From: Burkholderiales bacterium
GTDB lineage: Bacteria > Pseudomonadota > Gammaproteobacteria > Burkholderiales > Burkholderiaceae_C
Direction: 5' to 3'
NCBI GenBank assembly: GCA_028868305.1
Contig: JAGWUS010000004.1
Location: 1 to 64,000, forward strand
DNA: 64,000 nucleotides
Part shown: positions 20,451-24,911 of the stretch, piece after piece
Layout of the letters: every line of letters starts with the position of its first letter
How positions within the stretch are numbered: position 1 is the first letter of the stretch
Notes under the pieces: model-generated
Database searches by the model: none
What the model was told of the DNA's origin: nothing
What the model saw: only the letters and a program-made list of their open reading frames with translations
Program-made: the position numbers and the translations under genes

Positions 20451-20520
20451 GAACAAAAAAAGACTGCAGCCCGCTAAGGACTTGTACAGTATGCGTCCGG
20501 CGAACCCGTCTTGACTGAGG

Positions 20521-21105
20521 CTAGCGCAGCTTTTTGATTCGCTTGTTTGCCAGGTTCATGTCAAACGCCGCGGGTTCGAAGGGGCCGCCATTCCAAGTCC
20601 AGTAGTCAGCGTATTCCGGGTGTGACTTATCAGCGATGGATTCCCTGAACATCTCATAGCCTGGGGGGCCACCAACATCCTCGGGCGGGCAAGCATTCTC
20701 ACCAGCGACGCACATAGCCCAGTTGTTCAACGCAGTGGCATCCTCAATACGTTCCACGATGATACGGTGCATCCAGTCGTCACCGAAGTCATACACGTAG
20801 CTGCATTCAAACCCCACGCCGCCCAACACATCGCGGATGGCGTAACGCTTTTCATCCAGCAGATTGGGATCCATGCCCCAATCATCCTGTTCCTGACTGC
20901 CATAGCGTTTACCTTCGATGTTGAAGGCGTGCAAATGGCTATTCGTCCAGCCCATGGACTCCTGGATGATGCGGTCGAGCTTTTTAAGCTTGACCGTCTC
21001 CGGCACCCACAACCGCCGCCAAACCAACGGCTCAACGTACAGCAGCTCGACGCGCAGGTGAAATATTCGGTTGGCAGACGTGGATGGATTCAGAGATGTA
21101 ACCAT
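20521..21105 (-). CDS. Plasmid pRiA4b ORF-3 family protein (IS66 passenger gene)
   Basis: 194 aa; IFHLRVELLYVEPLVWRRLWVPETVKLKKLDRIIQESMGWTNSHLHAF...YVYDFGDDWMHRI...CPPEDVGGPPGYE; lies inside the IS66 terminal repeats. Confidence 0.88.
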   Translation of the reverse strand: MVTSLNPSTSANRIFHLRVELLYVEPLVWRRLWVPETVKLKKLDRIIQESMGWTNSHLHAFNIEGKRYGSQEQDDWGMDPNLLDEKRYAIRDVLGGVGFECSYVYDFGDDWMHRIIVERIEDATALNNWAMCVAGENACPPEDVGGPPGYEMFRESIADKSHPEYADYWTWNGGPFEPAAFDMNLANKRIKKLR

Positions 21106-21139
21106 GGCCGCAAGCTTAGCAGCCGGTAGGCAATCCAGG

Positions 21140-22651
21140 CTATTGCAAAGCCCAACGGTGCGGCAGCAATTCCCCGATCTGGCTGGCCCGATGGGTTGGC
21201 AAGCGTGTCAGCACATCTCTCAGATAAGCATACGGGTCATGACCGTTCATGCGGGCCGACTGAATCAGGCTCATCACAGCAGCCGCACGCTGGCCGGCGC
21301 GCAGGCTCCCCGCAAACAACCAGTTGTTCCGACCAATGGCAATCGGGCGGATCTGGTTCTCAATCCAGTTGTTGTCCACGGGCAATTGCCCGTCATCGAC
21401 GAATCGGATGAGCGCCCCCCAACGTCTGAGGCTGTAGTCCAATGCTTTGGCTGTAGCCGAACTGGCTGGCACTTTCTGTCGTTGCAAGGTCATCCACTCA
21501 TGCAATGCATCCAGAACCGGCTTGGCTTTTTGCTGGCGGACTTCCTGGCGCTCTGTGGCATGGAGTTCCTTGACCTCGCGTTCAATCTCATAGACGCGGG
21601 CTAACTGTCCCAGTGCGATCTCGGCAAGCTGGCTTTTATTGGCTGTATGCAAATCGAAGAACTTGCGTCGCGCGTGCGCTAGGCAGCCGACTTCGGTCAC
21701 GCCGCTGGCGATCAGCGCCTTGTAGCCACTGAAGTCATCGCAGGTGAGGCTGCCCCTCCATTCCCCCAGGAACTTGCGCGCGTACTCCCCGGCTCGCGAT
21801 TCGCAGAAGTCGTAGACCACGGCCTTCATGTCTTCAAAGGCTCCAGGTGCGTAGGCCCACAGGTAGGCACGGTGAGTCTTGCCATCGCCTGGCTTGAGCA
21901 TCTGCACCGGTGTTTCATCCGCATGCAGCACTCGGCGTTGCAGTATTTCGGTTTTCAGGGCATCGACCAGCGGTTGCAGGCGAACTCCGCAAGTGCCGAC
22001 CCATTGCGCCAGGGTGGAGCGCGGGATGGTCACTCCCGCACGACCGAAGATGCTCTCCTGGCGGCACAGCGGTAGGTGGTCTGCGTACTTGGCTACCAGC
22101 ACCTGGGCCAGCAGTCCGGTGGTGGGGATGCCCTTGTCAATGACATGTGCTGGCACCGGTGCCTGCACCATGGTTTCGCACTGGCTGCAGGTCCACTTGC
22201 CACGGACATGGCGCTCCACGCTGAAGACGCCAGGAACGTAGTCCAGCTTTTCGGCCACGTCCTCTCCAATGCGTTTCATCTGGCAACCACACTGGCAGGT
22301 CGTGGAATCAGGTTCGTGACGGATCTCAAGGCGAGGCAGATTGGCCGGCAAGGGCTGGCGTTTGGCTTGTTGCTTTGTAGCGGGCGCCGGAGACTGCTTT
22401 GTATTGAGCGCGTCGATGGCGTCGGCCACAGCGGCCAGGTCGGTGTCAATCTCCTCTTCGAGCAGACTGCGCTGTTCGGTGTTGAAACGCTCGGACTGGG
22501 CCGCGAATTTCATGCGTTTGAGCAGCGCGTTCTCGTAGCTGAGCTTCTCCAGCAGTGCGCTCTGGTGGCGCAGCTGTCCCATCAGCCGTGCGGCCACTTC
22601 GCGCAGTTGCTCTGCGCTCAATTCATCCAGGGAATGCTGTTCCACCACCAT
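21140..22651 (-). CDS. IS66 family transposase TnpC
   Basis: HADETPVQMLKPGDGKTHRAYLWAYAPG, GYKALIASGVTEVGCLAHARRKF, DNNWIENQIRPIAIGRNNWLFAGS. Start trimmed from track position 22720 to an internal ATG. Confidence 0.95.
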   Translation of the reverse strand: MVVEQHSLDELSAEQLREVAARLMGQLRHQSALLEKLSYENALLKRMKFAAQSERFNTEQRSLLEEEIDTDLAAVADAIDALNTKQSPAPATKQQAKRQPLPANLPRLEIRHEPDSTTCQCGCQMKRIGEDVAEKLDYVPGVFSVERHVRGKWTCSQCETMVQAPVPAHVIDKGIPTTGLLAQVLVAKYADHLPLCRQESIFGRAGVTIPRSTLAQWVGTCGVRLQPLVDALKTEILQRRVLHADETPVQMLKPGDGKTHRAYLWAYAPGAFEDMKAVVYDFCESRAGEYARKFLGEWRGSLTCDDFSGYKALIASGVTEVGCLAHARRKFFDLHTANKSQLAEIALGQLARVYEIEREVKELHATERQEVRQQKAKPVLDALHEWMTLQRQKVPASSATAKALDYSLRRWGALIRFVDDGQLPVDNNWIENQIRPIAIGRNNWLFAGSLRAGQRAAAVMSLIQSARMNGHDPYAYLRDVLTRLPTHRASQIGELLPHRWALQ

Positions 22652-22732
22652 GGGCGTTACTGTGCCAGAGCCACGCGGCGCATGCCATTGGCACATCTCC
22701 CAATTGGCACGGGATGCCAATACCTACGACGA

Positions 22733-23065
22733 TCACACCACGGCAATGACACCGGCCTGGCCAACGCGTTGCCAGGGCAGGCCTAGCACCAAAGCATCGA
22801 GCTGGACCCGCTCCAGGCTGCAGTGGGTGTCGCAGTCAGAAGTCCAAACGAACTTGCCTTGATGTAGCCTGCGTGCCGCCAGCCAGATGCCGATTCCGTC
22901 GTGCACCAGGATCTTGAGCCGGTTGGCCCGCTTGTTGGCGAACACATAGGCGTGGTACGGATGGGCTGCACCAAAGACGGCGACCACGCGGGCCAGCGCC
23001 GAGTCGGTTCCGGCGCGCATGTCCAGTGGTGCTGTTGCCAGCCAGGCGGCGTCGATGCGGATCAA
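22733..23065 (-). CDS. IS66 family accessory protein TnpB
   Basis: 110 aa; GTDSALARVVAVFGAAHPYHAYVFANKRANRLKILVHDGIGIWLAARRLHQGKF. Confidence 0.93.
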   Translation of the reverse strand: MIRIDAAWLATAPLDMRAGTDSALARVVAVFGAAHPYHAYVFANKRANRLKILVHDGIGIWLAARRLHQGKFVWTSDCDTHCSLERVQLDALVLGLPWQRVGQAGVIAVV

Positions 23066-23484
23066 CGCAGCAACTCACGAAGCAATTGTGCGCATTGGGC
23101 CGCACCAGTGAGTGGCCAGCGCACGCTCACCGTTGCACCGCCACGTTGGATCTCAATGTGAATGGTCTCCGCGGTTGAAACCGTTTTACTAGATCCTGGC
23201 CTTTGCAGACTGTGGCCTGTGCTTGAACCGATCGGCACTTCAGCCTGCAGTTGCAGCGGTACAAATGCCGAGGCGGTTTGCTGAAGATTGATCAGCAGCT
23301 GACGCTGCCGTTCCTCTCGGATCCACCGGTGCACCATGTTCGGGTTGAGTCCATGGCTCAGAGCAACGCCGGCCAGGGAGGCTCCCGGCTGGCGGCATCG
23401 CTCCAGCACCGATGCCTTGAACTCCACGCTGTACTCGCGCCGCCGGGGGCGCTCCACTGTCGACACTTGATCCATAGTCTCCAC
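23062..23484 (-). CDS. IS66 family accessory protein TnpA (HTH)
   Basis: 140 aa; RRREYSVEFKASVLERCRQPGASLAGVALSHGLNPNMVHRWI helix-turn-helix; overlaps tnpB start. Confidence 0.9.
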   Translation of the reverse strand: METMDQVSTVERPRRREYSVEFKASVLERCRQPGASLAGVALSHGLNPNMVHRWIREERQRQLLINLQQTASAFVPLQLQAEVPIGSSTGHSLQRPGSSKTVSTAETIHIEIQRGGATVSVRWPLTGAAQCAQLLRELLR

Positions 23485-23511
23485 GATCTCCTTCGTGGGG
23501 ACGATGCCTGA

Positions 23512-24036
23512 TCACGGCGATCGATTCAATATGGGATTGCCGGACGCATACCTTGTACAGTCAGCTACAAAATATGTAGCACCCGTATGCAGCCGTTCCA
23601 GAGCAAACCAGTCCAGTACCGGTACAGTACCTGGTAAAACAGGGCTCACCTGCACCGGCAATTGTTCCCAGGCAAAACACTGGGCTTCCCGCATCTGCAG
23701 TTCACCCGACCAGTCAAACACCTTGCAGAAATGCAGACGCACCAGCGCATGGGGATAGTCGACCATTTCTGTCTTCCACGGCTCTGCGGCTCCAATGGTG
23801 ATGCCGAGTTCCTCTTCAAGCTCGCGGCGCAAGGCCTGCTCGACGGATTCCCCGGCTTCGAGCTTGCCACCTGGAAATTCCCAGTAGCCAGCGTAGGCTT
23901 TGCCAGCAGGACGGGATGTCAGCAGGAAAGCGCCATCGGGGCGCACCAGCACACCCACTGCAACGTCCACCGCTTTGCGCTGGGCCCCACCCACGCGCTC
24001 GGCATGGGCATCGGCCACAAGCGGCCTGGATGTCAT
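23512..24036 (-). CDS. mutT: NUDIX hydrolase MutT (8-oxo-dGTP diphosphatase); C-terminus encoded by the IS66 end
   Basis: GYWEFPGGKLEAGESVEQALRRELEEELGI Nudix box; start trimmed to the ATG overlapping the next gene's stop. Last codons lie within the IS66 right end. Confidence 0.9.
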   Translation of the reverse strand: MTSRPLVADAHAERVGGAQRKAVDVAVGVLVRPDGAFLLTSRPAGKAYAGYWEFPGGKLEAGESVEQALRRELEEELGITIGAAEPWKTEMVDYPHALVRLHFCKVFDWSGELQMREAQCFAWEQLPVQVSPVLPGTVPVLDWFALERLHTGATYFVADCTRYASGNPILNRSP

Positions 24037-24911
24037 GTGGAAGCTGCCTGGCGACCGGCGTAATCGCGGGCAAACTGCCAGGCAACCCGACCACTGCGCG
24101 AACCCCGCTCCAGTGCCCACACCAGTGCTTCAGGACGCGCCGCCGCGATCTGCTCGGCACTGACACCAAGAGAAGAGAGCCATTGCGCAACGATCTGCAG
24201 ATATTCCTCCTGGTTGAACGGGTAGAAGCTGACCCACAGGCCAAAACGCTCAGAAAGCGAAATTTTTTCTTCCACGCCCTCACCTGGGTGCACTTCGCCA
24301 TCGGCGGTGTGGGTATAGGTCAGGTTCTCCGACATGTACTCAGGCAGCAGATGGCGCCGGTTGCTGGTCGCATAAATCAGTACATTGGGCGTGGCTGCTG
24401 CGACAGAACCGTCAAGCACCGATTTGAGCGCCTTGTAGCCCGGTTCGCCATCGTCAAAGCTCAGGTCGTCACAGAACACAATAAACTTCTCGAACCGTTG
24501 CCCCACCAGTTCCACAATATCGGGCAGATCCATCAGATCGTCCTTGTCCACTTCAATCAGACGCAGGCCCTGTGACGCGTACGTGTGCAGACAGGCCCGG
24601 ATGAGCGATGACTTGCCGGTGCCCCGGGCACCCGTCAGCAGCACATTGTTCGCGGTCCGTCCGCTGACAAACTGGGCGGTGTTGCGCTGGATTTTTTCTT
24701 TTTGCTGGTCAATCTCTTTGAGATCATCCAGCGCCATGGCTCCAAGGTGGCGCACTGCAGAAATTACACCCTGTCCGCTGACGCGACGGCGATAACGAAA
24801 GGCAATGGAGGCATTCCAGTCGGGTTGCTCCAAGCCGTGGGGCAGGGACGCCTCCACCCGTGCCATGAAGGCTTCTGCACGCGACAGAAACTGCAGGAAA
24901 TGCTCGTTCAT
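24033..24911 (-). CDS. AAA ATPase, DUF815 family
   Basis: NVLLTGARGTGKSSLIRACLHTYASQGLRLIEVDKDDL; IVFCDDLSFDDGE. Confidence 0.88.
   Translation of the reverse strand: MNEHFLQFLSRAEAFMARVEASLPHGLEQPDWNASIAFRYRRRVSGQGVISAVRHLGAMALDDLKEIDQQKEKIQRNTAQFVSGRTANNVLLTGARGTGKSSLIRACLHTYASQGLRLIEVDKDDLMDLPDIVELVGQRFEKFIVFCDDLSFDDGEPGYKALKSVLDGSVAAATPNVLIYATSNRRHLLPEYMSENLTYTHTADGEVHPGEGVEEKISLSERFGLWVSFYPFNQEEYLQIVAQWLSSLGVSAEQIAAARPEALVWALERGSRSGRVAWQFARDYAGRQAAST

Follow-up and report, generated by a model that had tools for sequence, protein, structure and literature searches.

IS66 elements that carry a passenger gene downstream of the transposase gene are named tIS66 in the literature, an example being ISPa75, which carries fosZ (PMC12888890). 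In ISPa75 and other tIS66 elements, the passenger is located downstream of the DDE transposase gene and inside the terminal repeats, as in the element described here; the fosZ passenger, however, is not a PF07929 gene but a resistance gene for which a separate promoter is predicted (PMC12888890). Among the other close systems, ISPre3, an IS66 element of plasmid pCAR1, shows the same tnpA-tnpB-tnpC-PF07929 order, strand, slot before the left end, and 8-bp target-site duplication, but its tnpC belongs to another clade (clade I), its passenger is about 44% identical to the present one, and its tnpC and passenger are separated by 3 nt rather than 34. The nearest annotated relatives with the same type of passenger are plasmid elements of Piscinibacter gummiphilus (L083) and Comamonas antarctica (L084), with passengers 52% identical and tnpC 66% and 81% identical, respectively, to those of the present element, and differing from it in a 4-bp overlap between the passenger start and the tnpC stop. 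No paper joining IS66 with pRiA4b ORF-3 passengers was found in the literature searched. The tIS66 category itself is already described, and the element reported here is a further example of it, not a new system.

The window, that is, the whole stretch of 64,000 nucleotides analyzed (Burkholderiales bacterium, contig JAGWUS010000004.1), contains a complete IS66-family element of 3,063 bp at 20489-23551, composed of tnpA, tnpB, tnpC, and a PF07929 gene, with the following features.

20481..20488, no strand: target-site duplication, left copy CTTGTACA, 8 bp identical at both ends
20489..20514, plus strand: IRL, the terminal inverted repeat on the passenger side (left), 26 nt, with 85% complementarity to the right repeat
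20521..21105, minus strand: passenger gene, 194 aa, PF07929 (PRiA4_ORF3; MM3350-like fold), from Pfam (202 bits), phmmer, and AlphaFold/Foldseek
21140..22720, minus strand: tnpC, IS66 DDE transposase (PF03050, E = 3e-103; PF13817, PF13005, PF13007; NF033517)
22733..23065, minus strand: tnpB (PF05717, E = 5e-26; NF033819)
23062..23484, minus strand: tnpA, overlapping tnpB by 4 bp (NF047595, 93 bits against a cut-off of 74)
23526..23551, minus strand: IRR, the terminal inverted repeat on the tnpA side (right), 26-bp inverted-repeat match
23552..23559, no strand: target-site duplication, right copy CTTGTACA, within the 3' end of a NUDIX/mutT gene

The boundaries are well defined. The 26-bp terminal inverted repeats are of the GTAA/T..CGTCCGG type and are flanked by a perfect 8-bp duplication that is absent from the preliminary description of this locus. 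TnpC contains the zinc-finger, leucine-zipper, and C-terminal modules, with all four of its Pfam matches above cut-off, and an internal ATG at 22652 provides an alternative start; tnpA and tnpB lie upstream of tnpC, and their NF047595 and NF033819/PF05717 matches also exceed the cut-offs. Ends, transposase modules, and gene order are all those of the IS66 family, and the presence between tnpC and the terminal repeat of a non-transposase gene that is missing in related elements places the element among tIS66. The passenger shares the minus strand with tnpC, tnpB, and tnpA, and its ATG is located 34 nt past the tnpC stop. The preliminary description had placed the 194-aa gene between the left repeat and tnpC in the orientation of tnpABC, which the open reading frame and the PF07929 and IS66 matches confirm, and had put its stop about 32 bp from the end of the element, the measured distance being 32 bp. 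Its view of the gene as cargo, not a chromosomal gene, also holds, the gene lying inside a bounded element with a target-site duplication.

The element is inserted in the last codons of the NUDIX/mutT gene (window 23512-24120), which is convergent with yacG. Across the joined flanks, corresponding to the empty site, this gene ends in ...DCTSP*, whereas in the window it ends in ...DCTRYASGNPILNRSP*, which is element-derived, with the tail RYASGNPILNRSP in place of SP. All nine sister genomes checked lack the element and have mutT next to yacG. The genome carrying the element (94 contigs) contains a single, intact copy of it and a single PF07929 gene, that of the element, and neither a second nor an empty copy was found in these contigs. 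The empty site in the sister genomes implies past transposition. A phage origin was rejected, with only short matches seen, in two phage records. Composition was likewise rejected as a mark of recent capture of the passenger, since neither the GC content (54.7% for the passenger vs. 60.2% for tnpC) nor GC3 (68 vs. 70) is distinctive.

The passenger matches PF07929 over its full length (residues 14-184 on profile positions 2-172 of 173) with 202.3 bits against a gathering score of 26.6 (E = 6e-60). The usual annotation of the family is only "plasmid pRiA4b ORF-3", and some members are labelled "TnpR" (transposon resolvase). With phmmer, the passenger was matched to MM3350 of Methanosarcina mazei (PDB 2i1s; E = 3e-29), an uncharacterized protein of the same family and fold. 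The AlphaFold model (pLDDT 91) is predicted to share this MM3350-like fold (Foldseek E = 3e-17, TM 0.77-0.85), and MM3350 was the sole convincing match of the predicted model in the PDB; two further fold matches were weak and to giant-virus proteins of unknown function. Conserved positions in the alignment are W53, H57, YxYDFGDDWxH 103-113, PPED 140-143, and GG 145-146, with H57, D106, D109, H113, and E142 the most strongly conserved, although the invariance of the YDFGDDWM motif is overstated, since peptides including it were used to gather the alignment. PF07929 is the sole domain: no serine or tyrosine recombinase domain or fold is present, no DNA-binding motif was recognized, profile, defence, and fold searches matched no enzyme, recombinase, phage, or defence family, and no PADLOC anti-phage model matched at E <= 0.01.

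Comparison with related elements showed that the region between tnpC and the left end is a variable slot. The distance from tnpC to the end is 33-55 bp in passenger-less relatives with target duplications and 615-704 bp in elements with the passenger, and in close relatives of the element the slot is empty or holds other genes. The element whose tnpC was the closest in the order-wide search (G107, 79% identical; L139, 543-3907) is flanked by the 8-bp duplication GGTTGATG and contains a Crp/Fnr-type regulator (cNMP_binding and HTH_Crp_2) in the slot, and the slot of an Azospira element holds a 102-aa open reading frame on the reverse strand. Because empty relatives transpose, the passenger is not needed for transposition, and the gene is rejected as an essential component, since it is missing from related elements whose ends are of the same kind. 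As separate observations, cadR and a cation transporter gene lie directly 3' of a related IS66 tnpC on a Comamonas aquatica plasmid (L255, 4074-5649), as does a chemoreceptor gene in ISPsy43 (L253, 4299-6335); both are putative cargo.

A linked locus was defined as one in which PF07929 and an IS66 tnpC lie no more than 600 bp apart, counted over all loci fetched. At all 28 distinct linked loci, PF07929 follows tnpC at its 3' side, on the strand of tnpC, and the position of the passenger ATG ranges from a 4-bp overlap with the tnpC stop to about 57 nt beyond it; the count also included three other geometries, which are neighbouring nested copies. The recurrence survey suggested in the preliminary description thus found the gene at the same position and in the same orientation throughout. 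The tnpA-tnpB-tnpC-PF07929 arrangement with intact ends and target duplications occurs in at least four further elements, namely those of Piscinibacter gummiphilus (L083), Stutzerimonas stutzeri (L087), pCAR1 (ISPre3, L088), and G358 (L174), and the contigs L171 and L158 start and stop at most 1 bp from the ends of the element. Furthermore, 203 plasmid records cover at least 80% of a joined tnpC-passenger query, and within the host's family 8 of the 15 loci retrieved with the passenger protein are IS66-linked. In the wider sampling of class and phylum, PF07929 genes mostly lie apart from any IS66 transposase, so that the link is a property of part of the family; stand-alone chromosomal homologues are common. 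The genomes sampled throughout are draft assemblies, in which several copies of an element may be collapsed into one. In a Pseudomonas veronii plasmid (L245, 4581-6213), the PF07929 gene carried by an IS66 element is directly followed by genes for a response regulator and a histidine kinase, possibly further, putative cargo.

This pattern bears on whether a chromosomal PF07929 gene was captured once, by this copy only, and is a functionless hitch-hiker. Incidental capture was to be indicated, according to the preliminary description, by copies with the same ends lacking the gene together with no recurrence of the pairing; gene-free relatives with ends of this kind do exist, but the pairing does recur. 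A single copy in the genome and the lack of the gene in some close relatives are what a hitch-hiker would give. Incidental capture is nevertheless rejected on the wide recurrence at one position and in one orientation, and the existence of an IS66-specific passenger clade and the substitution pattern of the gene also argue against it, leaving this explanation highly improbable. The dN/dS of the passenger is 0.06-0.08 relative to the passenger of a Rhodoferax relative, which is 89% identical and whose tnpC is reduced to its last 54 codons. As judged from codon substitutions, the passenger is under purifying selection, and, the comparison being with a copy beside a tnpC stub, this selection apparently extends beyond the life of the element. 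Selection is not universal, since broken passenger copies occur elsewhere (L177, L241).

Gene trees revealed both co-inheritance and exchange. On the tnpC tree, the passenger was gained or lost at least 7-8 times. On the passenger tree, one group (support 95/95) takes in almost every IS66-linked gene, with two subclades that match the two tnpC clades; the linked passengers of L011 and L232 are placed elsewhere and seem to be separate associations with IS66. The comparison of passenger and tnpC phylogenies that had been proposed gave a divided answer: the two are congruent in clade I (distance correlation r = 0.88) and swapped within the clade of the window element (r = 0.48). In the latter, L083 and L084 have the most similar passengers (78%) but not the most similar tnpC (67%); the L083-L084 grouping is rejected by the tnpC data (p-AU 4e-5), and the passenger data reject the placement of L084, seen with tnpC, among the set of the window element (p-AU 8e-4), these p-values being somewhat optimistic because the groups were picked after the trees were seen. 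The tests did not reject the pairing of the window element with L170/L171, the linked relatives nearest to it (p 0.35). The conflict thus points to at least one module swap between elements in this clade, so that the phylogenies, taken as reconstructed, show clade-level co-inheritance of passenger and tnpC along with swapping. The IS66-linked passenger clade includes seven members without an IS66 transposase next to them, showing that the gene can live alone, and no flanking terminal repeats that would make these members transposase-less mobile units were seen. One stand-alone member of the clade (L202, 1-3579) lies between Fic-like and Vsr-like open reading frames, assigned by eye, with no transposase nearby.

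The slot contents and the selection on the gene would suit a cargo that gives the host a selectable trait, with which the element spreads, comparable to the fosZ, cadR, and chemoreceptor passengers. Host-acting genes occupy the slot in relatives (Crp/Fnr in G107, fosZ in ISPa75), with cadR (L255) and the chemoreceptor gene (L253) as putative cases directly 3' of tnpC; purifying selection persists even beside a tnpC stub, and stand-alone chromosomal homologues abound. However, no defence, phage, or enzyme family is matched by the protein, and host benefit does not account for the recurrence of one family with three transposase types. Cargo of benefit to the host is a real possibility to which we give slightly less than an even chance.

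The PF07929 family also occurs with other transposases. In a Deinococcus peraridilitoris plasmid (L092, 4406-6787), a PF07929 gene likewise lies within a transposon beside a DDE transposase gene, but the transposase is of the unrelated ISL3 type, the two genes are convergent, and the unit is bounded by 40-bp perfect inverted repeats; no target duplication was seen at this copy. A comparable arrangement is that of tnpR in IS1096. In a Shigella flexneri IncX plasmid (L266, 4043-6725), PF07929, a serine resolvase, and the ISKra4-type transposase of ISKpn19 lie in a row beside qnrS1, and this PF07929 variant is also found in many enterobacterial resistance plasmids. The ISL3 and ISKra4 associations are a lead toward a transposon-accessory role.

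Such a role would make the PF07929 protein a true accessory modulating the frequency, target choice, or resolution of IS66 transposition, and likewise that of other transposons. The three unrelated transposase families (IS66, ISL3, and ISKra4/ISKpn19), the tight co-inheritance with tnpC in clade I, and passenger starts near-coupled to the tnpC stop favour modulation of transposition, whereas many transposing relatives lack PF07929 or carry unrelated genes, the passenger is swapped in the clade of the window element, an IS66 transposase is missing beside most of the PF07929 genes sampled in the class and phylum, and the protein, with MM3350 as its sole fold match, has no recognized recombinase or DNA-binding motif. 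We regard this reading as rather doubtful. A broader proposal is that PF07929 proteins serve DNA transposons in general, as an accessory factor that influences transposition or what results from it, is used by three or more unrelated families of transposase, and is traded as a module from one element to another; this appears unlikely.

The explanation we prefer, and consider very probable, is that the element is a tIS66 with PF07929 as an optional, selected passenger that is expressed with the transposase genes and acts in trans. TnpA, TnpB, and TnpC would move the whole 3,063-bp unit, carrying the PF07929 gene along in the variable slot that separates the tnpC stop from the left inverted repeat. 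Because a crude consensus scan of the element found no sigma-70-like promoter, the transposase transcript probably also serves for expression of the passenger, through read-through or near-coupled translation; no obvious ribosome-binding site precedes the passenger start in the window, 34 nt from the tnpC stop. PF07929 genes would keep being inherited with IS66 elements or be re-acquired, and the MM3350-fold protein is most likely an optional accessory in trans, to the benefit of the element or the host.

Overall, members of one protein family are found in the same slot in many IS66 elements; in one clade they are co-inherited with the transposase, and in another they have been swapped. This pattern, which includes two other transposase families, turns the role of PF07929 into a testable question, namely whether the protein is a transposon helper or host-benefit cargo.
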